Part shown: in pieces, positions 6,469 through 23,416 of the stretch | Layout of the letters: every line of letters begins with the position of its first letter | Numbering within the stretch: the first letter of the stretch is position 1 | Assembly (NCBI RefSeq): GCF_020252395.1 | Contig: NZ_JADCDB010000031.1 | Location: forward strand, 1-64,000 | Direction: 5' to 3' | From: Aestuariivirga sp. | Lineage (GTDB): Bacteria; Pseudomonadota; Alphaproteobacteria; Rhizobiales; Aestuariivirgaceae | Length of the DNA: 64,000 nt | The notes under the pieces: generated by a model | The model's input: only the letters and a program-made list of their open reading frames with translations | Told to the model about the DNA's origin: nothing | Database searches by the model: none | Translations under genes and position numbers: made by a program

Positions 6469-6496
6469 GCCCTCAAGTGCGGATGCACTTGAGGGC
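6469..6496. terminator. Perfect 12-bp hairpin after the first LacI gene
   Basis: Arms GCCCTCAAGTGC (6469-6480) and GCACTTGAGGGC (6485-6496) are exact reverse complements around a GGAT loop. It sits 25 bases past the LacI stop codon and upstream of dusA. There is no run of T on either side, so a classical Rho-independent terminator is not shown. It may be a REP-like element that ends or stabilises the transcript. A similar element occurs at 20427-20466. Confidence 0.55.
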
Positions 6497-6521: not shown

Positions 6522-7538
6522 TCAGGACGGGCCGGGGGTGTGGCTGGAGGCGCGGACGAGGAGCTCGACGGGGGTGCGCAGTTCGGGAGGCGGCGCCTTG
6601 CCCTCTTGCATCCAGTCAAGCACGGTGGCGGCGATGCGCACGCCGAAGGCCGCGATATCGCAGCCGACCGAGGTAAGGGCGGGGTAGGACTGGGCCGATT
6701 CCTCGATGCCGTCGAACCCGACGATGCGAAAGGCGGCGCCGACGGCCTGGCCTGCTTCGGCAAATCCCGCGATCATGCCGAGCGCCACGAGATCGTTGAA
6801 GCAGATCGCGCCATCGACATCCGGGTGTTCGCGCAGCAGGAAGCGCGCCGTCTCGCGCCCGAAGGCGCGGGTGGCGCGGCCCGGCACCAGCAGCGGCGCG
6901 TGCCCCGCGCCGGCAAGTTCGGCAATGTAACCCGCCATGCGCTCCCTGGTGACGCCGCGCTCCGCTACGCCGCCGGCGAAGGCAATGCGGCGGCAGCCCT
7001 CAGCCAAGAGATGCCGGACGGCGAGCCGCCCGCCCGCCACATAATCCGGCGCGGCGAAGGGGAAGCGGCCGGTCCTGTCATCGACCTTGCGCAGCACCTG
7101 CATGGCGGGAACGCCAGCGCGCAACAGCGCCTCGAAACAAGCGCCATCGCCGCCATAGGCGGGCGAGATGATGAGCGCCGCGACGCCGTGCTCGATCATG
7201 GCGGCGATGACCTGGGCCTGCAGCTCCGGACTTTCCGCGGTGTTGGCGACGACGGTGGCAAAGCCGCGCGCAGAGAGCGCCATCTGCACCGAGGTTGCAA
7301 ATTCGGTGAAGAAGGGATTGCGCAGGTCGTTGATGACGAGGCCGATAAGCCCGGCGCTGGACGAGCGCATCATCGCGGCGGAGCGGTTATAGACATAGCC
7401 GAGCCGCGCCATGGCGGCGCGCACCCCGGCGCGTGTTTCGGCGCGCACGCTGGGGCTGTTCTGCAGAACGAGGCTCACCGTCGATTTGGAGACCCCTGCC
7501 TCGCGCGCCACGTCGATGATGGTGGGCCTGCGGTCCAT
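6522..7538 (-). CDS. LacI-family transcriptional regulator (probable repressor of the 6.5-20.3 kb operon)
   Basis: The 338-residue protein has a LacI helix-turn-helix at the N-terminus (TIIDVAREAGVSKSTVSLVL, residues 6-25) and the hinge/minor-groove segment RLGYVYNRSAAMMRS. A periplasmic-binding-protein-like effector domain follows (GLIGLVINDLRNPFF near 64, IVGFDGIEESAQSYPALTSV near 270). It is the last gene of a long minus-strand operon with only 10 bases between it and the DUF993 gene. Two GGAACGTTCC palindromes with the central CG usual for LacI operators lie in front of the first gene of that operon. I infer autoregulated, substrate-inducible repression; the effector is unknown. Confidence 0.93.
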   Translation of the reverse strand: MDRRPTIIDVAREAGVSKSTVSLVLQNSPSVRAETRAGVRAAMARLGYVYNRSAAMMRSSSAGLIGLVINDLRNPFFTEFATSVQMALSARGFATVVANTAESPELQAQVIAAMIEHGVAALIISPAYGGDGACFEALLRAGVPAMQVLRKVDDRTGRFPFAAPDYVAGGRLAVRHLLAEGCRRIAFAGGVAERGVTRERMAGYIAELAGAGHAPLLVPGRATRAFGRETARFLLREHPDVDGAICFNDLVALGMIAGFAEAGQAVGAAFRIVGFDGIEESAQSYPALTSVGCDIAAFGVRIAATVLDWMQEGKAPPPELRTPVELLVRASSHTPGPS

Positions 7539-7548
7539 GGCGGTGGGG

Positions 7549-8712
7549 TCAGCCGATGCCGTGAAGCGCGAGCAGGAGTTTCATCCGCTCGACCGCGAGA
7601 TCGGGCTTCGTCAGCAAGCCTGCGGCATCGGCGAGGCGGAACACCGCGGCATAATGCGTGATATCGCGGCTCGACTGGAATCCGGCGGGCATGATGAAGT
7701 GCCGCTGATACCCGTTGAGCCATGACAGGAAGGCGATGCCCGCCTTGTAGAAGCGGGTGGGCGCACGGAAGATCTCGCGCGACAGGGGCACGGTGGGCGC
7801 GAGCAGCGCATGGTAGGTGGCCATATCGTTGCGGGCCAGCGCCTCCAGTGCCTGCGCGGCGGCGGGCGCAATGGCAGCGAAGATGCCGAGCAGCGCGTGG
7901 GAGTGGTGGCGGCCGTCGCCGGCGATCAGCGCCGCATAGTTGAAGTCGTCCCCCGTATAGAGCCTGACGCCGGCCGGAAGCCGCGCGCGGAAGCCTTCCT
8001 CATGCGCCTGGTCGAGCAGCGAGATCTTGATGCCGTCGACCTTCGAAGGGTTCGCGGCGATGAGCTCCAGCACGAAGTCCGAAGCGGCTTCGACGCTGGC
8101 GGAACCCCAGTAGCCATTCAAAGCCGGATCGAACATGCCGCCCAGCCAGTGCAGGATGACGGGCTCGCGCGCGCCGTCGATGAGGCGGCGGTAGACAGAG
8201 GCATAGGTTTGAGGCGGCGCGGATATTGCGGGGAAGGCGCGGCTCGCCATGAGGATGAGCTGGCCACCCGCCTTCTCGATGGCGGCGGCCTGCGTCTCAT
8301 AGGCGGCGGAGATGGCCGCGGCATCGCGCAGTTCCGGCAGCGGAAGGTGATCGGTTCCGGCGCCGCAGGCGACGCGCGGCTTCATCGGGTGCGTCTTCGC
8401 TGACGCCATGGTGCGCTCGATCAGTTCCTTGGCGGTCAACCAGTCAAGGCCCATGCCGCGCTGGGCAGTATCCATCGCCTCGGCGAGGCCCAGGCCCTGG
8501 TCCCACAATCCGATACGGAAGGCGAGTGTCGCATCCCAGTCCACCGCGGGGCGCGTGTCCCACGGGTTGCGCTCGCGCAGTGGGTCAGACACGACATGGG
8601 CGGCGGCGAAGGCCGTGCGGGTGAGCGGGATCGCCGGTGCGCGCGGCGCCAAAGGCTTGCCACGCAGGCGGTAGGCTTCAAGCCTGTGGTCTTCGGTGGG
8701 AAGCGTGAGCAT
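7549..8712 (-). CDS. DUF993 / dihydrodipicolinate-synthase-like family protein
   Basis: The 387-residue protein resembles the DUF993 family, a distant TIM-barrel relative of dihydrodipicolinate synthase and other class I aldolases. Recognisable stretches are NPWDTRPAVDWDATLAFR, LGLAEAMDTAQRGMGLDW, CGAGTDHLP and EPVILHWLGGMFDPALNGYW. The lysine KVDGIKISLLD near residue 225 lies in a strand position where DHDPS-type enzymes carry the Schiff-base lysine. No reaction is established for the family to my knowledge. In this operon it stands next to oxidoreductases that would produce keto-sugars or keto-acids, so a retro-aldol step on an oxidised substrate is a reasonable inference. It is 3 bases downstream of the GMC gene. 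Confidence 0.82.
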   Translation of the reverse strand: MLTLPTEDHRLEAYRLRGKPLAPRAPAIPLTRTAFAAAHVVSDPLRERNPWDTRPAVDWDATLAFRIGLWDQGLGLAEAMDTAQRGMGLDWLTAKELIERTMASAKTHPMKPRVACGAGTDHLPLPELRDAAAISAAYETQAAAIEKAGGQLILMASRAFPAISAPPQTYASVYRRLIDGAREPVILHWLGGMFDPALNGYWGSASVEAASDFVLELIAANPSKVDGIKISLLDQAHEEGFRARLPAGVRLYTGDDFNYAALIAGDGRHHSHALLGIFAAIAPAAAQALEALARNDMATYHALLAPTVPLSREIFRAPTRFYKAGIAFLSWLNGYQRHFIMPAGFQSSRDITHYAAVFRLADAAGLLTKPDLAVERMKLLLALHGIG

Positions 8713-8715
8713 GGG

Positions 8716-10302
8716 TCAGACCCCCTGGCTGGCGCGGATCATGTCCGCGGCCTTTTCCGCAATCATGATGGTGGCGGCATTGGTGTTGGAGGACACGACT
8801 GTGGGCATGATCGAGGCATCCGCCACGCGCAGCGCCGCGATGCCGTTGAAGCGCAGCGTGGGATCGACCACCGCGGCGGGGTCAACCCCCATGCGGCAGG
8901 TGCCGGCGGGGTGATGGTCGGTCTTGGCGTGGCGGCAGGCATAGTCGAAATAATCCTGCCCGGTCTTCACCTCCGGCCCCGGCAGGCGCTCCGCCTTGAC
9001 GAAGGGCTTGAGCGCGTTCTGGCGCATGATCTCCTGCGCCAGCTTGAGGCCGCGGATCGACATCTCGCGGTCATGCGGGTCGGCCCAGTAGTTGGGATCG
9101 ATCAGGGGTGCGGCCAGCGGGTCGGCGGAGGCGAGCCGCACGCTGCCGCGCGAGCGCGGGCGCAGATAGGCGGAGTTGAGTGTAACGCCGCCATCCGGCA
9201 TGGCGGCTACACCAGCCTCGATGCCGGAGCCCAGCCCCAAGTGCAGCTGGATGTCGGGCGAGCGGGCGTTGGAATCGGCGTACCAGAAGCCGCCGGTTTC
9301 GAAGAGGCTCGAGGCCACCGGACCCTTGCGGGTGAGCAGATACCGCAGGCCCGCCAGCGCCGACCGCATGGGCTTCGCATAACGGTCATAGGTGTGGGGG
9401 CCGGTGCATTCGGCGATGACGAAGAGGTCGATGTGGTCCTGCAGATTGGCGCCAACCGCCGGCTGGTCGAACACCACTGGCAGGCCCAGCCCGCGCAGGT
9501 GATCGGCGGGGCCGATCCCTGACAGCATCAAGAGGCGCGGGCTGCCGATGGCGCCGGAGGAGAGGATCACCTCGCGCTCCGCCCGGATGAGGCCGTCCGC
9601 CGCCGTTTCGACTCCGGCGGCCCTGCCCTTTTCCACCACGATGCGCAGCACCTGCGCTCCGGTGCGGATGGTGAGGTTGGGCAGGCTGCGCGCCGGGTTG
9701 AGATAGGCAATCGCGGCGGAGGAGCGCCGCACATTGCGCTGGGTGAGCTGGTAATAGCCAACGCCGTCCTGGCGCTCACCCGTCATGTCCATGTTGCGGG
9801 GAATGCCGAGCTCGGCGGCAGCGGCGAAATAGGCCTCGCAGATGGGAAGGGGCGCCGCCGGGCGGCTGACCCCCAGGGGACCGCCCTTGCCGTGATAGCG
9901 GTTGTCCCAGCTGTCATTATCTTCCGCCTTGCGGAAATAGGGCAGCACGTCCTCGTAAGACCAGCCGGTGCAGCCGGCCTGGCGCCATTCGTCATAGTCC
10001 AGCGCATTGCCGCGCGTGTAGATCTGGGCATTGATGGTGGAGCCGCCGCCCAGCACGCGGGCCTGGGTGTAGCGGATGACCATGTTGTTCATGTGGCGCT
10101 GCGGCACGGTGTGCCAGCCCCAGCTGCCGATGCCCTTGGTCATTTTCGCGAAGCCCGCGGGGATGTGATAGAAGGGATGCCAGTCACGCGGGCCCGCCTC
10201 GAGCAGCAGCACGCGGATGCCCTGATCCTCCGACAGGCGCGCGGCGAGGACCGAGCCTGCCGAGCCGCCCCCCACGATTACGTAATCATAATTCCCGCTC
10301 AT
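8716..10302 (-). CDS. GMC-family FAD-dependent oxidoreductase (choline dehydrogenase-like)
   Basis: With the ATG at 10302 the product is 528 residues and begins MSGNYDYVIVGGGSAGSVLA, the FAD-binding dinucleotide fold expected at the very N-terminus of GMC enzymes. The in-frame ATG at 10368 would add 22 non-homologous residues. The GMC signature GGGSTINAQIYTRGN is near residue 85. The C-terminal catalytic region has HHPAGTCRMG followed by SNTNAATIMIAEKAAD, giving the His/Asn pair. There is no signal peptide, so it is cytoplasmic. GMC enzymes oxidise alcohol groups of sugars, polyols or choline. The operon points to a carbohydrate-like substrate, and specificity cannot be read from sequence. 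Confidence 0.93.
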   Translation of the reverse strand: MSGNYDYVIVGGGSAGSVLAARLSEDQGIRVLLLEAGPRDWHPFYHIPAGFAKMTKGIGSWGWHTVPQRHMNNMVIRYTQARVLGGGSTINAQIYTRGNALDYDEWRQAGCTGWSYEDVLPYFRKAEDNDSWDNRYHGKGGPLGVSRPAAPLPICEAYFAAAAELGIPRNMDMTGERQDGVGYYQLTQRNVRRSSAAIAYLNPARSLPNLTIRTGAQVLRIVVEKGRAAGVETAADGLIRAEREVILSSGAIGSPRLLMLSGIGPADHLRGLGLPVVFDQPAVGANLQDHIDLFVIAECTGPHTYDRYAKPMRSALAGLRYLLTRKGPVASSLFETGGFWYADSNARSPDIQLHLGLGSGIEAGVAAMPDGGVTLNSAYLRPRSRGSVRLASADPLAAPLIDPNYWADPHDREMSIRGLKLAQEIMRQNALKPFVKAERLPGPEVKTGQDYFDYACRHAKTDHHPAGTCRMGVDPAAVVDPTLRFNGIAALRVADASIMPTVVSSNTNAATIMIAEKAADMIRASQGV

Positions 10303-10312
10303 CGAAGCCCCG

Positions 10313-11071
10313 TCACAAGCGCGCAAGGGACAGGCCGCCATCCACCGGGACGGCGGCGCCGTTGGCAAAAGCCATCTGGCCGGTGGCCATGGGCACGACC
10401 ACCGCGCCGATGTCGGCGGGCTCGCCCCAGCGCCCCGCCGGAACGAGGCCGCCGGTGATGCGCTGGGTATAGGCCTCGCGCACGCCCGCCGTCATGTCCG
10501 TGGCGATGATTCCGGGGCGGATCTCGAAGACGCCGATGCCCTCGCCCGCCAGGCGCAGCGCGAAGAGCTGCGTCATCATCGCTGCACCCGCCTTGGAGAT
10601 GCAGTATTCGGCGCGCTCCACAGAGGCCATGGCGGCGCTGACGGAGGTGATGAAGATCAGCGCACGATAGGGCCCCGGCGGCGCCTGCAGCATGCGCCGC
10701 GCCACTTGCTGGGCGAGGAAGAAGCCGCCGCGCAGGTTGATGTTCATCACATGGTCGAAATTCTCCGGCGTCAGCGCCAGCATGTCGCCGCGCAGACGTG
10801 CCGGCACGCCGGCATTTGAGACGAGCGTGGTGACGGGGCCGAGCCGCGCCGTGACGCCATCAAGCAGGGCCGGCGCCGCATCGATGTTGCGAATGTCATG
10901 GGTGAAATAGGAAGCCTGGGACCCAAGCTCCGCCAAGGCCGCGGCCACTTCGGGCGCATCGGCCCCACGTTCGGCGGCGAGCGCCACGCGGAAGCCCGCG
11001 CCAACGAGCGCACGGGCAATGCCAAGCCCGATGCCCTGCTGGCCGCCGGTGATGAGGGCAACACCGCTCAT
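10313..11071 (-). CDS. Short-chain dehydrogenase/reductase (3-ketoacyl-ACP reductase type)
   Basis: This is a classical SDR of 252 residues. Its N-terminal cofactor motif is ALITGGQQGIGLGIARAL and it has the NAG motif SNAGVP. The catalytic Ser is in ITSVSAAMAS and the Tyr-x3-Lys in YCISKAGAAM. The C-terminus ends MAFANGAAVPVDGGLSLARL as in many sugar and polyol dehydrogenases. The stop codon of the upstream GMC gene overlaps its start (ATGA), so translation is coupled. A step oxidising or reducing a hydroxyl of the operon substrate is inferred. Confidence 0.93.
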   Translation of the reverse strand: MSGVALITGGQQGIGLGIARALVGAGFRVALAAERGADAPEVAAALAELGSQASYFTHDIRNIDAAPALLDGVTARLGPVTTLVSNAGVPARLRGDMLALTPENFDHVMNINLRGGFFLAQQVARRMLQAPPGPYRALIFITSVSAAMASVERAEYCISKAGAAMMTQLFALRLAGEGIGVFEIRPGIIATDMTAGVREAYTQRITGGLVPAGRWGEPADIGAVVVPMATGQMAFANGAAVPVDGGLSLARL

Positions 11072-12563
11072 GGGGCGAACTCCCGCTCCGCGATGTGGCG
11101 GCCGGCGCGCAGGGCCAGCGCCGCGACGGTGAGCGAAGGGTTGACGGCGGCTGAGGTGGGCAGCACCGACGCATCGGTGATGAACAGGTTCGGGTGATCA
11201 TGGGTGCGGCAGAAGGGATCGGCCACGCTGTGGCGCGGATCGTGCCCCATGCGCGCCGTGCCGCATTGGTGGCTGGGGGTCCGCCGGTCGAAGGCGCGGG
11301 ACAGCACGAGCGGATAGCCCGCCTTGCGCAGCACGTCTTTCAGCTTCGCCACCAGCAGCTCATGCGCCTGCCAGTTGGAGCGCTTCCAGTCGAGCACGAT
11401 GCGGCCATTGCGCAGGCTGACCCGGCTTTCGGGATTGGGCAGGTCTTCCGACATCGCATAGAGATCGATGGAGCGCCGCGCCAGCCAGCCCGCCAACAGG
11501 CGCGGCACGGGCGCGCCCGAGGCGAGGATCGTTCCGCTGATCTTGCCGAGGAGCTGGATATTGCCCAGGGGCTCACCGCCGGGGCCACCGGTGAAATAGA
11601 AGTCATTCACCTGCAGCGTCTTCTGGTAGACGCAATCATTACGGCGGAGGGGGTGCAGCGCCAGCACGGCGGAGCAATTATGGTTCATGAAGTTGCGGCC
11701 GAGCTGGCCAGAGCCATTGGCGAGGCCTGCAGGGTGAGACGCATCGGCCGAGGCGAGAAGCAGCACGGCTGACTGCACGGCGCCTGCCGCCAGAACGATG
11801 AACGGTGCCTCAAGGCTTTCCGCTTGGCCGTTGCGCATGATCTCCACCGCGGTGATCCGGTTGTCCTTGCCGCAGACGAGGCGTGTGGCGCGGGTGTTGG
11901 TGAAAAGCGTGACATTGGGGTGTTTCAGCGCGGTGGCCAGGGCTGCCGTTTCGGCATCGAGCTTGCCGCCGCAAGTGTCGGGGAAAGCGTCCCATGTGGT
12001 GCGGCCATGCTCGAGCCAGCGCGGCAGATCGACTGCCAGCGGCAACGACGCGGGGTGAAGCCCCGCCGCCTTGAGGCGCCGGCGCAAGCCTGCAATCGGT
12101 GGTTCGTCCGGCACTGGCGGAAAGGGATAGGAGCCGGAATGCGGCGGCTCGGTGGGGTCCTCGCCCAACTGGCCGCGCACCTGGAACAGCTCCTCCGCGC
12201 GCTGGTAGAAGGGTTCGAGATCATCGTAGGAGAGAGGCCATCCCTCCGTCATGCCGCCCATGTGGCGGATGGGGCGGAAGTCCTCCGCCCGGTAGCGGAT
12301 CAGCACCGCGCCATAGAACTTGGAATTGCCGCCCACGTTATAGTAATTGCCGGGGTTGAAGGGCCGGCCATCGCCATCGAGCCACTCGTCATCCGGCCGG
12401 AAGTGACCGCGGCCGAAGATCGCCTCGTCGTCGCGGTCAGCCGCAGTGGGGCGCAGGCGATCGCCGCGCTCGAGGATGAGGATGCGCCGGCCCGTGGGCG
12501 CCAGAGCAGCGGCGAGTGTCGCCCCGCCCATGCCGGAGCCGATGACGATGACGTCGGGCAATG

Positions 12564-12567
<4 letters not shown>
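11068..12567 (-). CDS. Second GMC-family FAD-dependent oxidoreductase
   Basis: The 499-residue protein begins MTLPDVIVIGSGMGGATLAA with an FAD-binding fold and ILILERGDRL. A GMC signature-like GGNSKFYGAVLIRYR is near residue 90. The C-terminal active-site block has SHQCGTARMGHDP and then FITDASVLPTSAAVNPSLT, giving the His/Asn catalytic pair. It belongs to a GMC branch distinct from the 8716-10302 gene, closer to gluconate or fructose dehydrogenase large subunits in motif style, but with no companion cytochrome or small subunit nearby. The gene overlaps the ABC ATPase stop (ATGA) at its start and the SDR start at its end, so the three are tightly coupled. Confidence 0.92.
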
Positions 12568-13676
<1,109 letters not shown>

Positions 13677-13679
13677 GAC

Positions 13680-14558
13680 TTATCCCTTCACTGAACCCGC
13701 CATGAGACCGCGCACGAAGTAGCGGCCGGCGACGATGTAGACCAAAAGCGTGGGAAGCGCCGCCAGGATGGCGCCGGCGAAATGCACGTTGTATTCCTTA
13801 ACGCCGGTGGAGGACTGGACGAGATTGTTGAGCGCCACCGTCATCGGCTGGCGCGTGCCGCCGAACGAGACGCCGAACAGAAAGTCGTTCCAGATATTGG
13901 TGAACTGCCAGATCACCGACACCACGGTGATGGGCCCCGAGACCGGCAGCAGGATGCGCCAGAAGATGCGGAAGAAGCCCGCCCCGTCGATCATCGCGGC
14001 GCGCACCAGCTCGGTGGGGAAGGCGGCGTAGTAGTTGCGGTAGTAGAGCGTGGTGAAGCCCAGCCCATAGACCACGTGGACGAGGACGAGGCCCGGCACC
14101 GAACCCGCGAGGCCGAGCTTGCCCAGCACCACCGCCATGGGGATGAGCACGATCTGGAACGGGATGAAGCAGGAGAACAGCAGGAGCCCGAAGACGATGC
14201 CATCATATTTGAAGCGCCACTTGGTCAGCACATAGCCGTTGAGCGCCCCCAGAATGGTGGAGATCGCCACCGCCGGCGCCACCATGAGGATCGAGTTGAT
14301 GAAATAGGGCTTGAGACCCGTTGGCTCCACCCCGATCTGGGCGGTGGACCAGGCGGAGAGCCACGGTTCGATGGTGAATGTCCGCGGCAGGGACATCATG
14401 TTGCCGCCGGTGATTTCGGGCAACGGCTTCACCGAGTTCACGGCCATGACATAGAGCGGCAGCAAATAGTAAAGCGCGAAGAGCAGCAGCACGAGATAGA
14501 TGAACGCGCGCGTGACGCGGCCGGCCGAAACAGCGGTCTCCTGCGAGGCGGCGGACAT
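13680..14558 (-). CDS. Carbohydrate ABC transporter permease (MalG type)
   Basis: This inner-membrane permease has about 292 residues and six predicted hydrophobic segments. It has the large periplasmic loop after the first helix typical of MalG/AraQ proteins (NSVKPLPEITGGN). The cytoplasmic EAA loop, which contacts the ATPase, is ELVRAAMIDGAGFFRIFWRI. The ATG at 14558 overlaps the stop of the MalF-type gene (TGATG); a GTG one codon earlier is also possible. It forms the membrane channel with the following partner. Confidence 0.93.
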   Translation of the reverse strand: MSAASQETAVSAGRVTRAFIYLVLLLFALYYLLPLYVMAVNSVKPLPEITGGNMMSLPRTFTIEPWLSAWSTAQIGVEPTGLKPYFINSILMVAPAVAISTILGALNGYVLTKWRFKYDGIVFGLLLFSCFIPFQIVLIPMAVVLGKLGLAGSVPGLVLVHVVYGLGFTTLYYRNYYAAFPTELVRAAMIDGAGFFRIFWRILLPVSGPITVVSVIWQFTNIWNDFLFGVSFGGTRQPMTVALNNLVQSSTGVKEYNVHFAGAILAALPTLLVYIVAGRYFVRGLMAGSVKG

Positions 14559-15451
14559 CACGCCTTCTCCTTCAGCTCGGAGTAGAGATAGGGGATCATG
14601 ATGGCGGCAATCGCCATGAGCATCATCACCGCCGAGGCGGCGCCGATGCCCATCTGGTTGCGGGTGAAGGTGTAGGAATACATGAAGGTGGCGGGAAGCT
14701 CGGTGGCGCGGCCGGGTCCGCCGCCGGTCAGGGCAATAACCAGGTCATAGGACTTGATGGCGAGGTGGCTGAGGATGACGAAGGCCGAGAGAAAGGCGGG
14801 CCTCAAGAGCGGGATGACGATGCGGCGGTAGAGCTGGAAGGAGGTGGCGCCGTCGATCTGCGCGGCCTTCAGGATCTCGTTATCGATGCCGCGGAGGCCC
14901 GCGAGGAACATGGCCATCACGAAGCCGCTGGTTTGCCATACGGCGGCGATAACGATGGTGTAGATTGCCATGTTGCTGTCCTTGATCCAGGTGAAGGAGA
15001 AACTCTCCCAGCCCCAGAGGCGCATGGTTTTCTCCAGCCCGATGCCGGGGTCGAGGAACCATTTCCACGCCGTGCCGGTGACGATGAAGGACAGCGCCAT
15101 GGGATAAAGGTAGATCGGGCGCAGCATGCCCTCACCCCTGATTTTCTGGTCGAGGAAGATGGCCAGCATCAGCCCCACCGCGGTGCAGATGACGATGTAG
15201 CAGGAGGCGAAGATAGCGATGTTGACGAGCGCCGTGTGCCAGTGCTCCAGAGCCCAGAGCTTTCGGTAGTTCTCGAGCCCAACGAAGGTGTAGAGCGGCA
15301 GCATCTTGGAGCCGGTGAAGGACAGGACCGCCGTGAAGACGATGAAGCCGTAGACGAAGAGCAGCGTTGCCGCGAAGGACGGCGCCAGCACGAGCTTCGG
15401 CAGCCAGTCCTGAAGGCGGGTGCGGAAATCGGCGTCGGTGGCTGGGCGCAT
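14558..15451 (-). CDS. Carbohydrate ABC transporter permease (MalF/UgpA type)
   Basis: The 297-residue product has an N-terminal hydrophobic segment (LVLAPSFAATLLFVYGFIVF) and five further segments. Its EAA motif is EILKAAQIDGATSFQLYRRI near residue 205. It pairs with the MalG-type permease as the heterodimeric channel of the sugar importer. The gene is 75 bases downstream of the binding-protein gene, separated by a strong hairpin (15491-15520). Confidence 0.93.
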   Translation of the reverse strand: MRPATDADFRTRLQDWLPKLVLAPSFAATLLFVYGFIVFTAVLSFTGSKMLPLYTFVGLENYRKLWALEHWHTALVNIAIFASCYIVICTAVGLMLAIFLDQKIRGEGMLRPIYLYPMALSFIVTGTAWKWFLDPGIGLEKTMRLWGWESFSFTWIKDSNMAIYTIVIAAVWQTSGFVMAMFLAGLRGIDNEILKAAQIDGATSFQLYRRIVIPLLRPAFLSAFVILSHLAIKSYDLVIALTGGGPGRATELPATFMYSYTFTRNQMGIGAASAVMMLMAIAAIMIPYLYSELKEKA

Positions 15452-15490
15452 GACTCTTGATCCTCGGGCGGGACGCGGGACGGAAAGAAG

Positions 15491-15520
15491 CGGCGGGGCG
15501 GCGCCGTTGCCGCCCCGCCG
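15491..15520. terminator. 12-bp perfect stem-loop between binding-protein and permease genes
   Basis: CGGCGGGGCGGC (15491-15502) and GCCGCCCCGCCG (15509-15520) pair perfectly around a 6-base loop (GCCGTT). It has no T tract, so it is more likely a transcript-stabilising or attenuating hairpin that lets the binding-protein mRNA exceed the permease mRNA, as in other ABC operons. That role is inference. Confidence 0.6.
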
Positions 15521-15526
15521 GCGTGC

Positions 15527-16780
15527 TTACTTGGCGGCGGCCACCGCGCTGGCCAGCGCCTGGGCGGCTTCCGTGCCGTCCTTGTACTTGCCGTTGAAGG
15601 CGCCGGTGACAACGTCATAGACGGCGTTCTTCACGGCGGCGGGAGCGGCATGGCCATGCGCCATGGAGCCGAACAGCGTGCCGTTGGTGTTGGCTTCCGC
15701 CAGGTCCTTGATGCCCTTCTTGCCGCAATCGTCGAAGTCGGTGTCCGGCACGTCGGTGCGGGCGGGAACCGAGCCCTTGACCACGTTGAAGGCCGACTGG
15801 AACTTCGGGCTCTCGATCGAGGAGGCCATCTGCGCCTGGGCCTTCTGCTTGTCGTCGCCCTGCACGTTGAACATGGCGAACTGGTCGGAGTTGAAGGTCA
15901 CCGAGCCTTGCGTGCCGGGAAAGCGGATACAGACGAAGTCCACGCCCGGCTTCTTGCCGGCTTTGAGGAACTCGCCCTTGGCCCAGTCGCCCATGATCTG
16001 CATGCCGGCCTGGCCATTGATGACCATGGCTGAAGCGAGGTTCCAGTCGCGGCCGGAGAAGTTGTCGTCGACATAGGTGCGCAGCTTCATCAGGCGGTCG
16101 AAGGCATCCGCCATCTGCTTGCCGCCCAGGGCCTCCGGATCGAGGTCGATAAAGGCCTTCTTGTAGAAGTCATTGCCTTCCGACAGCACGACGCCGTCGA
16201 AGATGGTGGCTTCCTGCCAGGGCTGGCCGCCATGCGCCAAGGGCGTGATGCCGTTGGCCTTCATCTTGTCGAGCACCACGACGAGATCGTCCCAGTTCTG
16301 CGGCGCCTTGCCGCCGGCCTTGTCGAGCGCGTCCTTGCTGATCCAGATCCAGTTGGTGGAGTGGACGTTGACGGGCGCCGCGATCCAGTGCCCGTCATAC
16401 TTGGAGAAGCGCTGCAACGCGGCGGGCACCACCTTGTCCCAGCCTTCGGCGGTGGCCACGGCGTCGAGATTGCCGAGCGCCCCCTGCTGGGCCCAGTCCT
16501 GGATGTCGAAGCCCAGCATCTGCACGGCCGTGGGCGGGTTGCCTGCCGTGACGCGGGCGCGCAGCGCTGTCATTGCGGCCTCGCCGCCGCCGCCAGCCAC
16601 CGGCATGTCAACCCAGCCAATACCCTTGCTCTTGAGGTCTTCCTTCAGGACGTTGAGGGCCGCGGCCTCGCCGCCCGACGTCCACCAGTGCAGAACTTCC
16701 ACGTCGGCAGCCTTGGCCATGCCCGCCGAAAGGGCGGTGATGGCCACGGCCGTAAGCGCCTTTGCAACAATACCACGCAT
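15527..16780 (-). CDS. Sugar ABC transporter substrate-binding protein
   Basis: With the ATG at 16780 the product is 417 residues. A GGGAGGA ribosome-binding site sits just upstream, and the frame's earlier ATG at 16990 is discarded. The N-terminus [20 protein letters not shown] ending at MAKA-ADVEV is a clear Sec signal peptide. The mature protein has the family-1/extracellular solute-binding style [17 protein letters not shown], and later [18 protein letters not shown] and [19 protein letters not shown]. This is the CUT1 type, which binds mono- or oligosaccharides and related compounds in the periplasm. Specificity is not readable. Confidence 0.94.
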
Positions 16781-16853
16781 TGGATCCTCCCATGTGTTTG
16801 CGCAGAAAGTGGTTCGCCGCCCCCACGTGCCCGGCGGGGCCGGCACGTCTTCA

Positions 16854-16896
16854 CCCGTGGTTCCCGCCTCCGCCTTGTAAGGCCTCGAACCACGGG
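16854..16896. repeat. Nested inverted repeat upstream of the binding-protein gene
   Basis: CCCGTGGTTC (16854-16863) and GAACCACGGG (16887-16896) are exact reverse complements. Inside the 23-base loop, GCCTT and AAGGC form a second small stem. It lies in the 160-base gap between the enoyl-CoA hydratase stop and the binding-protein start. This is the widest gap in the operon, so it could be a processing site or mark an internal promoter region. No convincing promoter hexamers were seen. Confidence 0.5.
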
Positions 16897-16940
16897 GAAT
16901 TCCAAAAGCGGTCGCCTGAATGCTTGCACAAGTTTGGCAT

Positions 16941-17708
16941 TCACGCTCCGGAAAAATTCGGCTTGCGCTTGGCGCGGAAGGCGGCAACACCCTCCTGCTT
17001 GTCGGCGCTGGCAGCGATCATGCCGCTGGCAAGGGCCTCCACCATGGCGGGCGCATCTTCGCCCGCGGCGGCATGGATCATGTACTTGGCGACCTCGGTG
17101 GCGCGCGGCGATGTGGCGAGCAGGCGCCCGGCAAGAGCCCGCGCGGCGCTGAGCGGATCATCCGCCACTTCGGCCACGAAACCCAGCGCCAGGGCGCGCC
17201 CCGCTGTGAGCCTGCGGCCGAAAAGCGCCATCTCCTTCACCACCGGCTCCGGCAGCAGGCGCATCAGGCGCTGCGTGCCGGACCAGCCGGGAACGATGCC
17301 CACTCCGGTTTCCGGCAGCGCCAGCGTGGCATTGGGCGCCATCACCCGGATGTCGCAGGCGGTGGCAAGCTCCAGGCCGCCGCCGAAGGCATGGCCATTG
17401 AGCACGGCGATGGTGGGCTTCGAGAGCCTGGCCAGCCGGTCAAGAATGCGGTGCCCGTCGCGCACCCAGCGGCGGGCGAAATTAGCCGGCGGCAGGCCGC
17501 CCCAGGCATTGATGTCCGCCCCCGTGCAGAAGGCGCGGTTACCCTCCGCTGTGAGCAGCACGCAACGCAGCGCATCGTCCTTGTCCAGCGCATTGCAATG
17601 GGCCTCGAGGCCTGAGAGCATCTCAGGCGTCAGCGAATTGAGCTTGGCCGGATTGTCCAGCCGGAGAATGGCCAAGGGGCCTTCATGATCGAGATGAACA
17701 GCGCTCAT
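16941..17708 (-). CDS. Enoyl-CoA hydratase/isomerase (crotonase) family protein
   Basis: The 255-residue crotonase-fold protein shows the oxyanion-hole segment [15 protein letters not shown] near 58 and [17 protein letters not shown] near 100. It also has [19 protein letters not shown] near 128, which keeps the two glutamates used by true hydratases. Crotonases hydrate enoyl-CoA thioesters, but the superfamily also contains beta-diketone hydrolases that open carbon rings. It overlaps the CoA-transferase stop (ATGA). Its presence in an operon with sugar uptake and alcohol oxidases suggests that the substrate is finally converted to an acyl-CoA. That is inference. Confidence 0.93.
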
Positions 17709-19288
17709 GCGCGGCTCCCCGGCGACCAGCCCATAGGCCCTTCGGCCAGCAGGGCGCGGGGCATTTCGCGCGCGTTGGCGGCGATTCCCACGCGGCCCAG
17801 GCTCGCCGCTGCAATGTCACGTGCGGGGTCGATACCGGGCATGATCTCGACAGCCACGAGCCCTTCGGGCCGGAGCGCTATAACGCAGCGCTCGGTGACA
17901 TAGAGCACCTCCTGCGCCTGCGAGCGGGCACGCGCGCCGGAGAAGGTGACGTGCTCCACCTTATCCACCATCTTGGTGAACTTGCCGGGCTTCAGCACCT
18001 TCACGCCGCCGGCACCCAGTTCGATCTCGGCGCCGGCCTCGAACCAGCCGGAGAACACGATCTTGCGGGCATGCGCCGTGATGTCAACGAAGCCGCCACA
18101 GCCGGCGGTGAGATAGGGCTTCTTGCCGAGCTTCGAGACATTGACGTTGCCCTCCACGTCGACCTCTAGGAAAGACAGGAAGGACATGTCGAAGCCGCCC
18201 CCCTGAAAGTAAGTGAACTGGTTGGGTGACGGCACATAGGCATCGGCGTTGGACGAGCAGCCGAAGGCGAAGCCGGTGAGCGGCATGCCGCCGACAGCCC
18301 CCTGCTCGATGGCCCAGGTGACGGACTGGGCGTGGCCTTCCTCAAGCAGCACGTAAGGCACCATGGCGGAGATGCCGAAGCCCAAATTCGCTGTCATGCC
18401 GTCGCGCAGCTCCATGGCGGCGCGGCGCGCGATCACCTTCTCGATGCCGTGGGGAGCGGGCGCGAAGCTCGCCCAGGGGCGCATCACCTCGCCCGAAATG
18501 GCAGGGTCATAGGGCGTTTCGGTGGTCTGCTTCTGCCCGGGGTCGAGCACCACAAGATCGACGAGGTGACCGGGGACCCGCACATTGTGCGGACGGAGCG
18601 AGCCATGGGCCGTCATGCGCTTGACCTGGGCGATGACGAGGCCGCCATGGTTACGCGTGGCGATGGCCTGTTCGAGGCCGCCCAGATAGGCGCCTTCATG
18701 CTCATAGGTGAGGTTGCCGCGCTCATCCGCCGTGGTGGCGCGCAGAATGCAGACGTCGGGCACGATATTGGGGAAGTGCAGCCAGGTCTCGCCGCCGAAC
18801 TCGGCGCGCCGCACGATGGGGGCGGCTGCGCCCTTGGCGTTCATGGCGCAGCCTTCACGCATAGGGTCGACGAAGGTTTCGAGCCCGACCTTGGTGAGCA
18901 CGCCGGGGCGCCGCGCGGCGGCGTCGCGGTGCATATCGAAGAGGATGCCGGAGGGTACGTTATAGGCGGGGATCGCGTCCTCGACGATCATCTTCCAGAT
19001 CGCCGGCATGGGCAGGTTGGACGGGCCCGAGGGATAGGACCCGGCGATGACGCGGGCGAGCAGGCCCTCCTGCGCGATGTGGTCCATGCCCTTGACGCCA
19101 TACATATCACCCGCCGCGATGGGATGGATGGTGGTGATGTTGCGCGGATGCCCGGTGTCGCGGAAGCGCTCGCCGATCGCTTGCAGCACCCGGTCCGGGC
19201 AGCCCAACGCGGAGGAGGACGAGACGGTGACCACCGCGCCATCCTTGATGCGGGCCGCGGCCTCAGGCGGCGAGACGAGCTTGCCCAT
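17705..19288 (-). CDS. Acetate/3-oxoacid CoA-transferase family, fused alpha-beta subunits
   Basis: The 527-residue protein combines both halves of a family I CoA-transferase. The N-terminal half starts MGKLVSPPEAAARIKDGAVV, and the C-terminal half has the active-site segment TWAIEQGAVGGMPLTG near residue 335, where the Glu forms the acyl-glutamyl/CoA intermediate. FSFLEVDVEGNVNVSKLG-type sequence (LSFLEVDVEGNVNVSKLGK) and TAGCGGFVDIT are also typical of propionate/acetoacetate CoA-transferases. It would load CoA onto a carboxylate made by the pathway. It overlaps the Gfo/Idh stop by one base at its start and the crotonase start at its end. Confidence 0.93.
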   Translation of the reverse strand: MGKLVSPPEAAARIKDGAVVTVSSSSALGCPDRVLQAIGERFRDTGHPRNITTIHPIAAGDMYGVKGMDHIAQEGLLARVIAGSYPSGPSNLPMPAIWKMIVEDAIPAYNVPSGILFDMHRDAAARRPGVLTKVGLETFVDPMREGCAMNAKGAAAPIVRRAEFGGETWLHFPNIVPDVCILRATTADERGNLTYEHEGAYLGGLEQAIATRNHGGLVIAQVKRMTAHGSLRPHNVRVPGHLVDLVVLDPGQKQTTETPYDPAISGEVMRPWASFAPAPHGIEKVIARRAAMELRDGMTANLGFGISAMVPYVLLEEGHAQSVTWAIEQGAVGGMPLTGFAFGCSSNADAYVPSPNQFTYFQGGGFDMSFLSFLEVDVEGNVNVSKLGKKPYLTAGCGGFVDITAHARKIVFSGWFEAGAEIELGAGGVKVLKPGKFTKMVDKVEHVTFSGARARSQAQEVLYVTERCVIALRPEGLVAVEIMPGIDPARDIAAASLGRVGIAANAREMPRALLAEGPMGWSPGSRA

Positions 19289-20292
19289 CAGAAGCCCCCG
19301 TAATCGATGCGCTGGCGGGCGCCGCTGCGGGCCGCCTCGCGCACCGCAAGGGCGATGGTCAGCGACTTGACGCCATCCGCGCCATCGGCCGCAGGGCGGC
19401 CCTTGCCGGCCACCGCCGCCTCAAAATCGGCAATGCCTTGCGTGTAGAGATCGTAAGCCGGATAGGACACGCGCTCACGGCCCTCTGCGGTGACGAGTTC
19501 CACCTCGCCAACGGGCTTCTGGGTCATGATGCCCCGGCCGAAGATCGAGCCTTCGGCGCCGTGGATCTCCAGCCCGCAGCCGGCATGGCGGTGGGTGAAG
19601 CTGTCATGCGCGAAGACCTGCACGCCTGACGGGGTCGACCAAACCGACATGCAGCTATCCTCCACCCCCTGGCCGAGGCCCGACTGCGTCATCTGTGCGA
19701 CGACATCAACCGGATCTTCGCCCAGATGAAAGCGCACCGTATCTGCATCATGCACGGTGATGTCCGGGATGACGCCACCGCCCGCGGCGGGATCGTTCAG
19801 CCGCCAGCCCTGAAGATGGGGCGGCAGGTAAACCGCGTGGTGCACGCGCATCGACAGCACCTTGCCCACGCGCCCATCGGCGACAAGCGCGCGGATGGCG
19901 CGGTGGCTGCCAGCGCAGCGCAGGTGATGGTTGGTGGCGAAAACCACGCCGCGGGCTTCCGCCGCGCGCACCATCCCGGATGCCTCGGCCAGGCTCATGC
20001 CCAGCGGCTTCTCGCACAGCACGTGTTTGCCGGCGGCGATGGCGCCCATGGCCTGCGGATGATGCTTCTCGTTGGTCGAGGAGATATAGACCGCGTCGAT
20101 CCCCGGCGCCGCCAGGGCCGCCTCAAGACTGGTGCCCCATGACGGGATCCGGTGGCGCGCCGCAAATTCCCCAGCCCGCTCCGCCGTTCCGCTCACCACA
20201 TGCGCCACGGAGCCACCGGGCTGGGCCCGCATGGCCGGGATCATGTATTCCGCCGCAATCGTACTGGCACCGACGAGCAACCAATTCACCAC
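19288..20292 (-). CDS. Gfo/Idh/MocA-family NAD(P)-dependent oxidoreductase
   Basis: The 334-residue protein starts with GTG (20292 or the next codon 20289), with AGGAGG just upstream. It has a Rossmann fold (NWLLVGASTIAAEYMIPAMR, residues 3-22), the conserved ENE-like region VYISSTNEKHHPQAM and the sugar-dehydrogenase motif CEKPLGMSLAEA near 93, whose EKP lysine is catalytic in this family. The C-terminal alpha/beta domain binds substrate. Members oxidise sugars, inositols or hexuronates. It is the first gene of the long minus-strand operon and lies directly behind the paired operators. Confidence 0.93.
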   Translation of the reverse strand: MVNWLLVGASTIAAEYMIPAMRAQPGGSVAHVVSGTAERAGEFAARHRIPSWGTSLEAALAAPGIDAVYISSTNEKHHPQAMGAIAAGKHVLCEKPLGMSLAEASGMVRAAEARGVVFATNHHLRCAGSHRAIRALVADGRVGKVLSMRVHHAVYLPPHLQGWRLNDPAAGGGVIPDITVHDADTVRFHLGEDPVDVVAQMTQSGLGQGVEDSCMSVWSTPSGVQVFAHDSFTHRHAGCGLEIHGAEGSIFGRGIMTQKPVGEVELVTAEGRERVSYPAYDLYTQGIADFEAAVAGKGRPAADGADGVKSLTIALAVREAARSGARQRIDYGGF

Positions 20293-20317: not shown

Positions 20318-20367
20318 GTTCCATTGGAACGTTCCGATCAATACTGGAACGTTCCGGAGGGAGTCAA
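20318..20367 (-). promoter_or_regulatory. Operon promoter with two GGAACGTTCC operators
   Basis: GGAACGTTCC occurs at 20326-20335 and again at 20346-20355, centre-to-centre exactly 20 bp, so both copies lie on the same face of the helix. On the minus strand a TTGACT hexamer (20367-20362) sits just upstream of the second copy, and an AT-rich TATTGA-like -10 lies between the copies. A bound repressor would therefore cover the promoter. The palindrome with central CG fits LacI-family operators, and the LacI gene closing this operon is the natural candidate. The palindromes are seen directly; promoter and partner are inferred. Confidence 0.75.
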
Positions 20368-20575: not shown

Positions 20576-21388
20576 TCAGGCCGTGGCAGCCGCCTTCGGG
20601 CGGAAACGGTTTGCGAGGACGACCAGCAGGATGCCCGGGATGAACACCACCGTGGCGATGGCCGGATAAAGGGGCGAGGAGCCGACCGCGATGCCGGAGA
20701 AGATGAAGGTGGGGATGGTCCGCGTCGAGCCCGCGAGGCTGTAGGTGATATAGAAATTGCCCCAGCTCAGCAGGAAGGCGAAGATCGCGGCGGAGAAGAT
20801 GCCGGGCCAGAGCAGCGGGATGGTCACGTGGCGGTAGACCTCCCAGGTGGAGGCGCCGCAGTCGCGCGCGGCATCCTCCAGCACGGGATCGAAATTATAG
20901 ACCTGCACCGCCACGATGACCATGGCGAAGGGTGCGATGTAGACGATGTGGCCGATGATGGCGGTGACCAGCCCCGTGTTGAAGCCGAACCAGCGGCCCA
21001 AGACCGAGAACCACAGCAGCAGCACGATGCCGAGGAGGAGCTGCGGGAAGGCCAGCGGCGCCCCCGCCAGCCCCTGGAAGGCGCGCTTGCCGGTGAAGCG
21101 GTAACGCACCGCGACGATGGCCGCCATGGCGCCGATGCTGGTGGCGATGACGGTGGCAAAGGCGGCGATGATGGTGGAATTCCACAGTGCCGTGAGCGCC
21201 GGGCCGGACTTGAACAGCGCGCCATACCATTTGAGCGACACGCCATCGAAGGGCAGCGTGAGGAAGCGCCCCTCCTGGAAGGAGAAGGCGATGAGCGTGA
21301 AGATGGGGATGTAGAAGAACACCAGCACCGCGGCCATCGCGCCATAGAGGATGACGTTGGCGAGTGCGCTTTCAAAGCGGTGGTTCAT
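20576..21388 (-). CDS. ABC transporter permease (spermidine/putrescine PotC type)
   Basis: The 270-residue inner-membrane protein has about six hydrophobic segments, starting ILYGAMAAVLVFFYIPIFTL. Its EAA loop DAARDCGASTWEVYRHVTIP is near residue 175. PotC/YdcV-type permeases have this length and the N-terminal segment LIAFSFQEGRFLTLPFDGVS. It forms the channel with the preceding PotB-type permease, whose stop codon overlaps its start (ATGA). It is the last gene of the importer operon. Confidence 0.92.
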   Translation of the reverse strand: MNHRFESALANVILYGAMAAVLVFFYIPIFTLIAFSFQEGRFLTLPFDGVSLKWYGALFKSGPALTALWNSTIIAAFATVIATSIGAMAAIVAVRYRFTGKRAFQGLAGAPLAFPQLLLGIVLLLWFSVLGRWFGFNTGLVTAIIGHIVYIAPFAMVIVAVQVYNFDPVLEDAARDCGASTWEVYRHVTIPLLWPGIFSAAIFAFLLSWGNFYITYSLAGSTRTIPTFIFSGIAVGSSPLYPAIATVVFIPGILLVVLANRFRPKAAATA

Positions 21389-22251
21389 TGGCCGGCCTTC
21401 CGCATGCCGGCGACACGGCTGAACAGCAGAACGACGAAGATGGCAACGGCCATCAGCACCAGCGTGAGCGCAGCCCCCAAGGGCCAGTTGACGCGCGTCT
21501 CGAAGGTCTGGCGGATCAGCTCCGCCGACATGGGCGATTTGCCGCCGCCCAGCACCTTGGGCTCGAGGAAGACGCCGACACCCAACAGGAAGATCAGCAC
21601 GCTGCCGGCCCAGATGCCGGGCCGCGACAGCGGCAGCGTCACCTCCCAGAAGGCGCGGAACTTGCCCGCGCCGGCATCATAAGCCGCGAGGATGAGCGAG
21701 CGGTCGATGTTGTCGATCGAGAGGTAGATGGTGAAGATGGCGAATGGCAGGAGGTTGTAGACCATCCCTAACAGCGTGGCCCAGTCGGTGAAAAGGAAGG
21801 CCACCGTTTCCGGCGGGAAGCCCATCTGCATCAGAAGGTAATTCGCCGCGCCCTTCTTGTCGAGGAACAGCACCCAGCCGAAGGTCTTCAGCGTGGCGTC
21901 CGTGATGAAGGCGAAGGTGATGAGCACCTTGATTTCGCTGTCGAGCCGCTTGAAGCGCGTGGCCAGCCCATAGGCGATGGGGAGGGCGATGACGATGCAG
22001 ACGGCGACGCAGGCCACCGCCATGACCAGCGTATGGCCGAGGATGGTCCAGTAATGCGGCTTGGAGAACACGTCCGTCCAGGTGGCGAGGTTCCAGGTCC
22101 AGTTGAGCTGGAAGTTCTGAGTCTTCTGAAAGGTGAGGACGAAGGTCATCACCAGCGGCGCCAGGAAGCAGGTTGTCTGCAGGATGACGCTCGGCAGCGC
22201 CTTCACCCAGAGCTCCGGGTCACGCCAGCTGCGGGAGACCTCCATGTCCAT
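21385..22251 (-). CDS. ABC transporter permease (PotB type)
   Basis: The 288-residue permease has a first hydrophobic segment VILQTTCFLAPLVMTFVLTF and a long periplasmic loop containing WTWNLATWTDVFSKPHYW. The central EAA motif is ILAAYDAGAGKFRAFWEVTL near residue 195. This is the PotB/YdcU-type partner of the PotC-like protein. It follows the ATPase gene after only 3 bases. The transported molecule may be a polyamine or another small cation or acid. Confidence 0.92.
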   Translation of the reverse strand: MDMEVSRSWRDPELWVKALPSVILQTTCFLAPLVMTFVLTFQKTQNFQLNWTWNLATWTDVFSKPHYWTILGHTLVMAVACVAVCIVIALPIAYGLATRFKRLDSEIKVLITFAFITDATLKTFGWVLFLDKKGAANYLLMQMGFPPETVAFLFTDWATLLGMVYNLLPFAIFTIYLSIDNIDRSLILAAYDAGAGKFRAFWEVTLPLSRPGIWAGSVLIFLLGVGVFLEPKVLGGGKSPMSAELIRQTFETRVNWPLGAALTLVLMAVAIFVVLLFSRVAGMRKAGQ

Positions 22252-22254
22252 GGC

Positions 22255-23358: not shown

Positions 23359-23377
23359 TGTCTTCCGGAAAAGAGAA

Positions 23378-23407
23378 GGGCCGGGCATGGGGCAGCATGT
23401 CCGGCCC
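23378..23407. terminator. Stem-loop between PotD-like and PotA-like genes
   Basis: GGGCCGGGCATG (23378-23389) pairs with CATGTCCGGCCC (23396-23407), with one mismatch in twelve and a GGGCAG loop. It fills most of the 58-base spacer downstream of the binding-protein gene. As with the other transporter operons here, it may protect the binding-protein mRNA or reduce read-through. Confidence 0.55.
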
Positions 23408-23416
23408 GTTAAGACG

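Follow-up and report, generated by a model that had tools for sequence, protein, structure and literature searches.

Why should an operon built around a sugar importer and alcohol oxidases also carry a CoA-transferase (CoAT) and a crotonase (ECH)? The question is raised by twelve minus-strand genes, all in one direction, which span 6522-20292 of a 64,000-nucleotide stretch of Aestuariivirga sp. DNA (positions 1-64,000 of contig NZ_JADCDB010000031.1, GCF_020252395.1; genome of 3.49 Mb in 46 contigs), hereafter the window, and are transcribed from 20292 toward 6522. The gene content, the synteny with relatives, two upstream palindromes and a gene for a 1,5-anhydro-D-fructose reductase (AFR) homologue inside the operon were observed directly. 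The operon is tentatively predicted, with somewhat less than even confidence, to be an inducible, CoA-assisted aerobic pathway for glucose-like 1,5-anhydrohexitols, namely 1,5-anhydroglucitol (AG), 1,5-anhydrofructose (AF) and 1,5-anhydromannitol (AM). Slightly more doubtful is the detailed form of this aerobic 1,5-anhydrosugar route, in which CoAT and crotonase would serve as a CoA-recycling sugar-acid dehydratase that opens an ether ring lacking an anomeric carbon, while pyruvate and glycerate would be released by DUF993, acting through a Schiff base as an acylpyruvate hydrolase or an aldolase. In transcription order, the genes are as follows.

19288..20292, minus strand: AFR, Gfo/Idh oxidoreductase, 1,5-anhydro-D-fructose reductase homologue (phmmer to 2glx and 4koa)
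17705..19288, minus strand: CoA-transferase, single-chain, YdiF/FadX type, PF01144 (Pfam/profile matches; Glu328)
16941..17708, minus strand: crotonase / enoyl-CoA hydratase (Pfam; Glu113 and Glu133)
15527..16780, minus strand: solute-binding protein of CUT1 type, kin of glucose-binding proteins (structure matches)
14558..15451, minus strand: ABC permease A (Pfam)
13680..14561, minus strand: ABC permease B (identity to the S. meliloti permease)
12564..13676, minus strand: ABC ATPase with MalK-type OB domain (Pfam)
11068..12567, minus strand: GMC1 flavoprotein, kin of glucose and fructose dehydrogenases; proposed to oxidise the C2-OH of the ring
10313..11071, minus strand: SDR dehydrogenase, FabG-like; proposed dehydrogenase acting at C3 (allylic) or 4-dehydrogenase of 2-keto-3-deoxygluconate (KDG)
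8716..10302, minus strand: GMC2, choline-dehydrogenase/alcohol-oxidase branch; proposed C6 primary-alcohol oxidase
7549..8712, minus strand: DUF993, DHDPS-fold, invariant Lys229; proposed to act as an aldolase or to hydrolyse 2,4-diketo acids
6522..7538, minus strand: LacI-family repressor (Pfam)

The Pfam scan covered 11 of the 12 operon proteins, and permease B (P0007) was named by its 78% identity to the annotated S. meliloti permease. Two starts were reset, both start codons being chosen by judgement: that of the binding protein to 16780 from the ORF start at 16990, and that of GMC2 to 10302 from 10368. Among the 11 junctions there were four 4-bp overlaps, including the one that pairs the CoAT and crotonase genes, one 1-bp overlap, four gaps of 3-10 bp and two wider gaps, which flank the binding protein gene (160 bp before it and 75 bp after it); the other nine junctions overlap or leave at most 10 bp. 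An earlier note on this DNA had read the twelve genes, several of them with overlapping junctions, as one operon, and this was borne out, with two starts amended, by synteny in the relatives. The same note knew of no described pathway with this gene set, and none was found in the open-licence literature, searched partly at title level.

The window AFR matched 2glx and 4koa with phmmer E-values of about 1e-99, the next PDB match being at 2e-24, and Lys95, Asp177 and His181, which we take to be the catalytic Lys/Asp/His, were kept in 68/68 relatives (residue counts for AFR, CoAT, ECH, GMC and SDR come from relatives with at least 40% identity, those for the binding protein from at least 50%). 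The presumed catalytic residues of AFR, GMC, SDR, CoAT and ECH were all invariant among the relatives examined. The window Gfo/Idh protein is an AFR homologue, and AF reduction is its predicted activity. Two other assignments were rejected, inositol dehydrogenase (inositol 2-dehydrogenase IolG model at 117.5 bits, cut-off 355) and levoglucosan dehydrogenase (model score far under the cut-off). Of the "cyclic polyol or sugar-like" substrate suggested earlier, the sugar-like part is supported, and the cyclitol part is disfavoured by the AFR homology and the inositol dehydrogenase score.

The operon of S. meliloti Ak57 reads LacI-AFR-CoAT-ECH-aldehyde dehydrogenase (ALDH)-binding protein-permeases-ATPase-GMC1-SDR-GMC2-glycerate kinase, with a divergent DUF993 gene (DUF993 by Pfam). 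Its AFR, annotated as 1,5-anhydro-D-fructose reductase and presumably encoded by SMc04400, is 99.7% identical to crystal structure 4koa, which was deposited under that name. Identities between the window and S. meliloti proteins were 80% for the binding protein, 78% for permease B, 67% for GMC2, 63% for CoAT, 62% for GMC1, 56% for DUF993, 52% for AFR, 49% for the SDR, 47% for ECH and 43% for LacI. Passages of a 2025 review (PMC12441222) state that Rhizobiaceae metabolise AF via an AFR-type reductase to anhydromannitol.

In the route proposed here, the glucose-type ABC importer would take up the polyol, GMC1 would oxidise AG at C2 to AF, and AFR would reduce AF to AM, an activity published for the homologue, so that C2 is inverted. 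GMC2, together with ALDH in most relatives, would oxidise the C6 primary alcohol to 2,6-anhydrohexonate, which CoAT would load with CoA, probably taken from the previous product. The thioester would acidify C5-H, the crotonase would expel the C4 hydroxyl to give a 4,5-ene enol ether, and CoA would move from this product to the next acid, as with CaiB/CaiD; neither ATP nor a thiolase would be needed, since CoA passes from product to next substrate. The SDR would oxidise C3, the vinylogous ester would open to 2,4-diketo-3-deoxyhexonate, and DUF993 would split the latter into pyruvate and D-glycerate, the glycerate being taken by a glycerate 2-kinase; alternatively, the enol ether would be hydrated to KDG, which would go to KDG kinase in relatives without DUF993. 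CoA would thus be a recycled handle, not an end product. By chemical derivation on paper, 2,6-anhydrohexonate is an isomer of KDG, and D-KDG or D-glycerate can arise only if C2 has the manno configuration, which AFR sets; the gluco epimer would yield the other configuration. The need for the manno configuration would account for the presence, in one operon, of both a dehydrogenase and a reductase acting on C2.

The conservation of the operon was followed in a CoAT scan with one genome per species, in which the best 80 of 573 relatives were kept; the counts describe close relatives. The record titles that name a lineage among the 80 are, as we take them, all alphaproteobacterial, and by these titles related operons are widespread among Rhodobacterales and Rhizobiales. 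The closest named record among the matches listed was Aestuariivirga litoralis, with a CoAT of 94% identity and the gene order unchanged. In the 65 of 80 loci with at least 9.5 kb after CoAT, ECH was found in 65, each of the four transporter genes in 61, GMC1 in 62 and the SDR in 53, frequencies that place the co-occurrence of these genes beyond chance. ALDH was present in 61 of the 65, and the window operon is without it; GMC2 was present in 40, an undercount, since the fetched flanks stop there. The crotonase gene was found in 79 of the 80 loci, and in the remaining one (L040) the contig stops 272 bp past the CoAT match. AFR was present in 51 of the 67 relatives with room upstream. The gene caller was crude: one locus, L116, was called wrongly, and some SDR, crotonase and DUF993 genes that it overlooked were recovered by tblastn or from reading frames; the 20 extended loci were picked for a nearby DUF993, whose presence there is by selection.

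Within the window's own genus the locus looks patchy, because CoAT relatives occur in 7 of 13 genomes, the own one included (the others are just 58-64% identical), and gene arrangements differ: L202 has a full AFR operon, and in L203 and L205 a GMC-CoAT-crotonase unit lies opposite an SDR-DUF993-isomerase unit.

The CUT1 sugar importer named in the earlier note was confirmed by a glucose-type binding protein with adjacent permeases and ATPase. The binding protein was nearest to 4r2b, then to 5dvf (E 8e-122), which is listed as an ABC sugar transporter binding protein and which we take to be the P. putida glucose-binding protein, and it also matched 2b3b, named glucose-binding protein (E 2e-35); with its two adjacent permeases and the ATPase it has the make-up of a CUT1 glucose-type importer. 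At the positions compared, presumably the glucose contacts of the glucose-binding protein, two Trp, Glu and Lys were kept in 71/71 operon binding proteins and His in 69, and Leu159 stood in 71/71 where 5dvf has Lys. This change from Lys to Leu would suit a ligand missing one hydroxyl, though it is no proof.

The likeness to glucose-binding proteins would also suit a reading in which the same chemistry serves another substrate, an osone, a glucoside or an oligosaccharide, with AFR acting on the 2-keto-aldehyde form. AFR reportedly reduces osones as well, and it is optional among the relatives. SMc04396, which is taken as the binding protein of the S. meliloti operon from its gene number and its neighbours and position, was induced by dextrin, not by an anhydrosugar, according to a passage of PMC4960864, and this counts for another substrate and against an anhydrosugar. 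However, the strain from which AFR came was isolated on 1,5-anhydrofructose (passage of PMC12441222), the scan of 11 of the 12 operon proteins recognised no glycosidase, and an aldose would need no anhydro chemistry, so that a different substrate is considered unlikely.

For the oxidation steps of the proposed anhydrosugar route, GMC1 was nearest to glucose and fructose dehydrogenases (His433/Asn476 in 76/76), and GMC2 was nearest to a chloramphenicol-inactivating oxidoreductase, choline dehydrogenase and alcohol oxidases (His464/Asn508 in 26/26). Ring C2 was assigned to GMC1 and C6 to GMC2 because their nearest relatives are sugar dehydrogenases and primary-alcohol oxidases, respectively. In the SDR, Tyr156 was kept in 67/67 and Lys160 in 65/65, and the protein's score exceeded the cut-off for the 3-ketoacyl-ACP reductase model. 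The earlier suggestion that the substrate is first oxidised and then cleaved is supported.

Sugar catabolism normally dehydrates sugar acids with dedicated dehydratases. In the window operon, CoAT is a YdiF-like PF01144 protein with Glu328 in 93/93, and the crotonase keeps Glu113 and Glu133, presumably the hydratase glutamate pair, in 92/92. This pair seems to yield a 2-keto-3-deoxy acid or the corresponding 2,4-diketo acid, or else pyruvate plus glycerate, because the relatives add glycerate-kinase-like, KDG-kinase-like or 2,4-diketo-3-deoxy-acid-hydrolase-like genes. A KDG-kinase-like sugar kinase gene lies just upstream of CoAT in 10 of the 80 relatives, the window operon being without one, and for one of these proteins the two best solved structures are KDG kinases. 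A glycerate-kinase-like MOFRL gene occurs in 7 of the 20 extended loci, and by annotation the operons of S. meliloti and Microvirga have one too. One distant relative combines CoAT, ECH, SDR, DUF993, GMC2 and a glycerate-kinase-like gene with a hydrolase nearest to 2,4-didehydro-3-deoxy-L-rhamnonate hydrolase. In the window genome, the sole glycerate-kinase homologue found (49% identity to the type in relatives' operons) is at C25:114690-115928, on the same contig and about 94 kb away.

These genes bear on the claim of the earlier note that the substrate is "released as an acyl-CoA". A true CoA end product would arise if DUF993 cleaved the oxidised sugar and the short acid were activated by CoAT, hydrated by the crotonase and passed to beta-oxidation. 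The YdiF/FadX type of CoAT, the hydratase type of the crotonase, the SDR score against the 3-ketoacyl-ACP reductase model and one S. meliloti variant with an acyl-CoA dehydrogenase and electron-transfer flavoprotein (ETF) would fit this course. However, neither a thiolase nor an acyl-CoA dehydrogenase was present among the 11 of 12 scanned operon proteins, and the glycerate-kinase-like and KDG-kinase-like genes suggest sugar acids as products. Six of 28 genomes lack DUF993 but retain CoAT and crotonase, so the pair probably acts upstream of DUF993. The acyl-CoA release is probably wrong, given the lack of a thiolase and an acyl-CoA dehydrogenase among the proteins scanned, the hydratase glutamates in 92/92 and the kinase and hydrolase genes of relatives, the S. 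meliloti variant being the counter-example, and a CoA end product is regarded as improbable. Nor are CoAT and crotonase confined to fatty-acid clusters elsewhere, since their relatives sit in sugar-transport operons; assignment to a fatty-acid cluster was rejected because the relatives show sugar transport and not beta-oxidation genes, save in that one S. meliloti variant.

Two further loci with CoAT relatives were recorded. In E. coli SK1144 (L197, record 4622708-4629695), a cluster of LacI / CoA-transferase-crotonase-Nramp-like transporter-FAD_binding_2 flavoprotein lies between dnaB and qorA; its CoAT has about 61% identity to the window CoAT, and the cluster was matched by 825 of 5426 complete E. 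coli genomes. In L129 (5409-16440), the genes that accompany CoAT and crotonase are a distant relative of AFR, one resembling galactonate dehydratase and a TRAP transporter, and a divergent gene weakly matches GH88, below the cut-off.

DUF993 was found in 22 of the 28 genomes searched whole, the hosts of 28 of the 80 loci. The model of the window protein matched DHDPS-family structures, including YagE and a KDG aldolase; the solved DUF993 structure 4dnh was the first match and the DHDPS family came next. Lys229 was invariant in 33/33 and aligned with the DHDPS lysine. On this modelling, DUF993 would have a DHDPS-superfamily TIM-barrel fold with a candidate Schiff-base lysine, and the earlier description of DUF993 as aldolase-like gains support from both. 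The GTTGE-type motif, which we take to be the carboxylate-binding motif of the DHDPS superfamily, was paired with no conserved DUF993 motif in the weak profile alignment. No mention of DUF993 was found in the open-licence papers searched.

When 240 genomes were sampled evenly across the class, 21 had DUF993 and five had CoAT orthologues with at least 58% identity, the own genome being in both counts; two of the other four CoAT genomes have DUF993 close by. Of 21 other DUF993 places 16 were fetched, and beyond those two, CoAT was called in none of the 14 (L131-L144), so on the whole DUF993 need not go together with CoA chemistry. A distant Gfo/Idh protein was called near DUF993 in 10 of these 14, the L132 neighbours are enolase-like and xylose-isomerase-like by Pfam, and similar neighbours were seen elsewhere by eye; L131-L144 apparently represent a separate sugar pathway.

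If the kinase and DUF993 consume one pool, they should replace each other, and 29 genomes were compared for this pattern. Homologues at least 60% identical to one of the KDG-kinase-like proteins were found in 5 of 6 genomes without DUF993 and in 1 of 23 with it (hypergeometric 2.9e-4; P 0.0012 without the query's own genome), figures that carry no phylogenetic correction, include some incomplete metagenome-assembled genomes and depend on a 60% line set after viewing the list, weaker homologues being present in 26 of 29 genomes. The DUF993-less exception, G010, has a kinase homologue of just 49%. Among the five, the kinase and a FAD_binding_2 flavoprotein lie within about 5 kb after the LacI gene of the operon in G020 and G021, just upstream of CoAT in G003 and G004, and on a separate contig in G007. 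The SDR tracks DUF993, being in the operons of 21 of 22 DUF993 genomes and 2 of 6 without it. In some relatives, then, a flavoprotein and the KDG-kinase-like gene take the place of SDR and DUF993.

Upstream of AFR, two palindromes were observed, as follows.

20325..20355, no strand assigned: two TGGAACGTTCC palindromes, 20 bp apart, putative LacI-family operators

In an exact genome-wide scan, these two were the only exact copies of TGGAACGTTCC in the 3.49-Mb genome. When up to two mismatches were allowed, the 300 bp ahead of the first gene contained a TTGGAACGNTCCAA-like site in 60/60 AFR-first, 7/8 CoAT-first and 2/8 flavoprotein-first loci, compared with about 2% of control stretches; 76 of the 80 loci had upstream sequence long enough, and the motif was derived from these same loci. 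The one-mismatch scan of the window with GGAACGTTCC was not significant alone (3 matches against 1.71 expected, a number reached in 25 of 100 shuffles), and the operator claim relies on the exact genome-wide scan and the cross-locus scan. Since the palindromes are unique in the genome and TTGGAACGNTCCAA-like sites recur in relatives, it seems likely that the operon has its own LacI-type regulation through these putative operators. A possible end of the operon was noted by eye after the last gene, and separate importer genes lie just upstream of the AFR operon; for the latter, the Pfam scan took in the ATPase and one of the two permeases.

6469..6496, minus strand: hairpin with a 12-bp stem and no T run, possible operon end
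20576-23625: separate ABC importer genes (two permeases and an ATPase, on the same strand)

A published route competes with the proposed acid formation. According to passages of PMC12441222, citing Kuhn et al. 2006, in Sinorhizobium morelense a P450-like enzyme, still unidentified, hydroxylates C1 after AF reduction to give mannose. In such a course, an oxygenase outside the operon would convert AM to mannose, the GMC and ALDH enzymes of the operon would make mannonate, and CoAT and crotonase would dehydrate mannonate to KDG; on paper, mannonate dehydration also yields D-KDG. The absence of a P450 was tried as an argument against it and failed, because P450 genes were present in 29/29 operon genomes searched, the own one included. 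However, no oxygenase was recognised in the 11 of 12 scanned proteins of the window operon, the annotations of the S. meliloti and Microvirga operons name none, and the 2025 review, in the passages concerned, has no enzyme for the hydroxylation. A CoA detour for mannonate would also be odd, since single-enzyme aldonate dehydratases are common in bacteria. A course through mannose is judged rather unlikely, and it stands as a rival because of the P450 genes in all 29 genomes.

The following points weigh against the anhydrosugar route as proposed. The review passages report C1 hydroxylation to mannose as established and not acid formation (PMC12441222). We infer the exact substrate and all catalytic steps other than anhydrofructose reduction. 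The ALDH of relatives' operons has no orthologue in the window genome (best match 39% identity), so GMC2 would need to perform both oxidations. AFR is missing in 16 of the 67 relatives with room, several of which carry a FAD_binding_2 flavoprotein; flavoprotein and kinase occur together in some AFR-less relatives, and G021 has both AFR and the flavoprotein. This variant of the operon has no role in the scheme, and the order of steps is uncertain, because the flavoprotein would be superfluous if the CoA step and ECH already gave KDG. A second S. meliloti cluster (L192 14001-24650), with CoAT, ECH, glycerate kinase, acyl-CoA dehydrogenase, SDR, DUF993, ETF beta and alpha and no annotated GMC, fits beta-oxidation better than the anhydrosugar scheme. 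The supporting enzyme names all scored under their NCBIfam cut-offs: two of the ten KDG-kinase-like genes were scanned, with KdgK as best model at 247 of 400 bits, the glycerate-kinase-like gene reached 199 bits against 550 for glycerate 2-kinase, and the hydrolase of the distant relative reached 366 of 500 bits. The DUF993 model was poor (pLDDT 64.8) and the DUF993-DHDPS profile match weak (probability 25%, P 8e-4).

If the proposal is true, the operon supplies candidate enzymes for every step of an oxidative 1,5-anhydrosugar route, DUF993 gains a function, and CoA-thioester chemistry serves to dehydrate a sugar acid. According to passages of the 2025 review (PMC12441222), descriptions of a comparable oxidative route for 1,5-anhydroglucitol are lacking, and any probiotic strategy would depend on an aerobically active enzyme. 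The operon makes this missing pathway directly testable, and its relatives include S. meliloti.

Compared with known systems, the anaerobic 1,5-anhydroglucitol pathway of gut bacteria (glycyl-radical YbiW/PflD) handles the same substrate class, but it is phosphorylated and oxygen-sensitive according to passages of PMC12441222, and none of its steps is proposed here. The AF catabolism of S. morelense and S. meliloti shares the reductase family (52% identity) inside a related operon, whereas its published route is C1 hydroxylation to mannose and the window operon suggests acid formation and CoA chemistry. Myo-inositol catabolism (iol) differs in that the IolG model was not reached (117.5 vs 355 bits), and fatty-acid beta-oxidation clusters differ in the thiolase and acyl-CoA dehydrogenase, neither of which turned up in the scan of 11 of the 12 operon proteins. 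The non-phosphorylative Entner-Doudoroff and the L-rhamnonate/L-fuconate 2,4-diketo-3-deoxy-acid pathways would share a KDG-type or 2,4-diketo intermediate, a DHDPS-fold lyase or FAH-type hydrolase and glycerate 2-kinase, but the window operon is without an aldonate dehydratase and the dehydration is assigned to CoAT and crotonase. In carnitine metabolism, CaiB, a family III CoA-transferase, and CaiD dehydrate an acid through a recycled CoA thioester, and the same pairing of CoA-transferase and crotonase is proposed to act here; the window CoAT belongs to PF01144, so it is not a member of that system though it may work alike, and its proposed substrate is a sugar acid. The reductase and the CoA-recycling trick are each known; no description of a sugar pathway that combines them was found in the open-licence literature searched.

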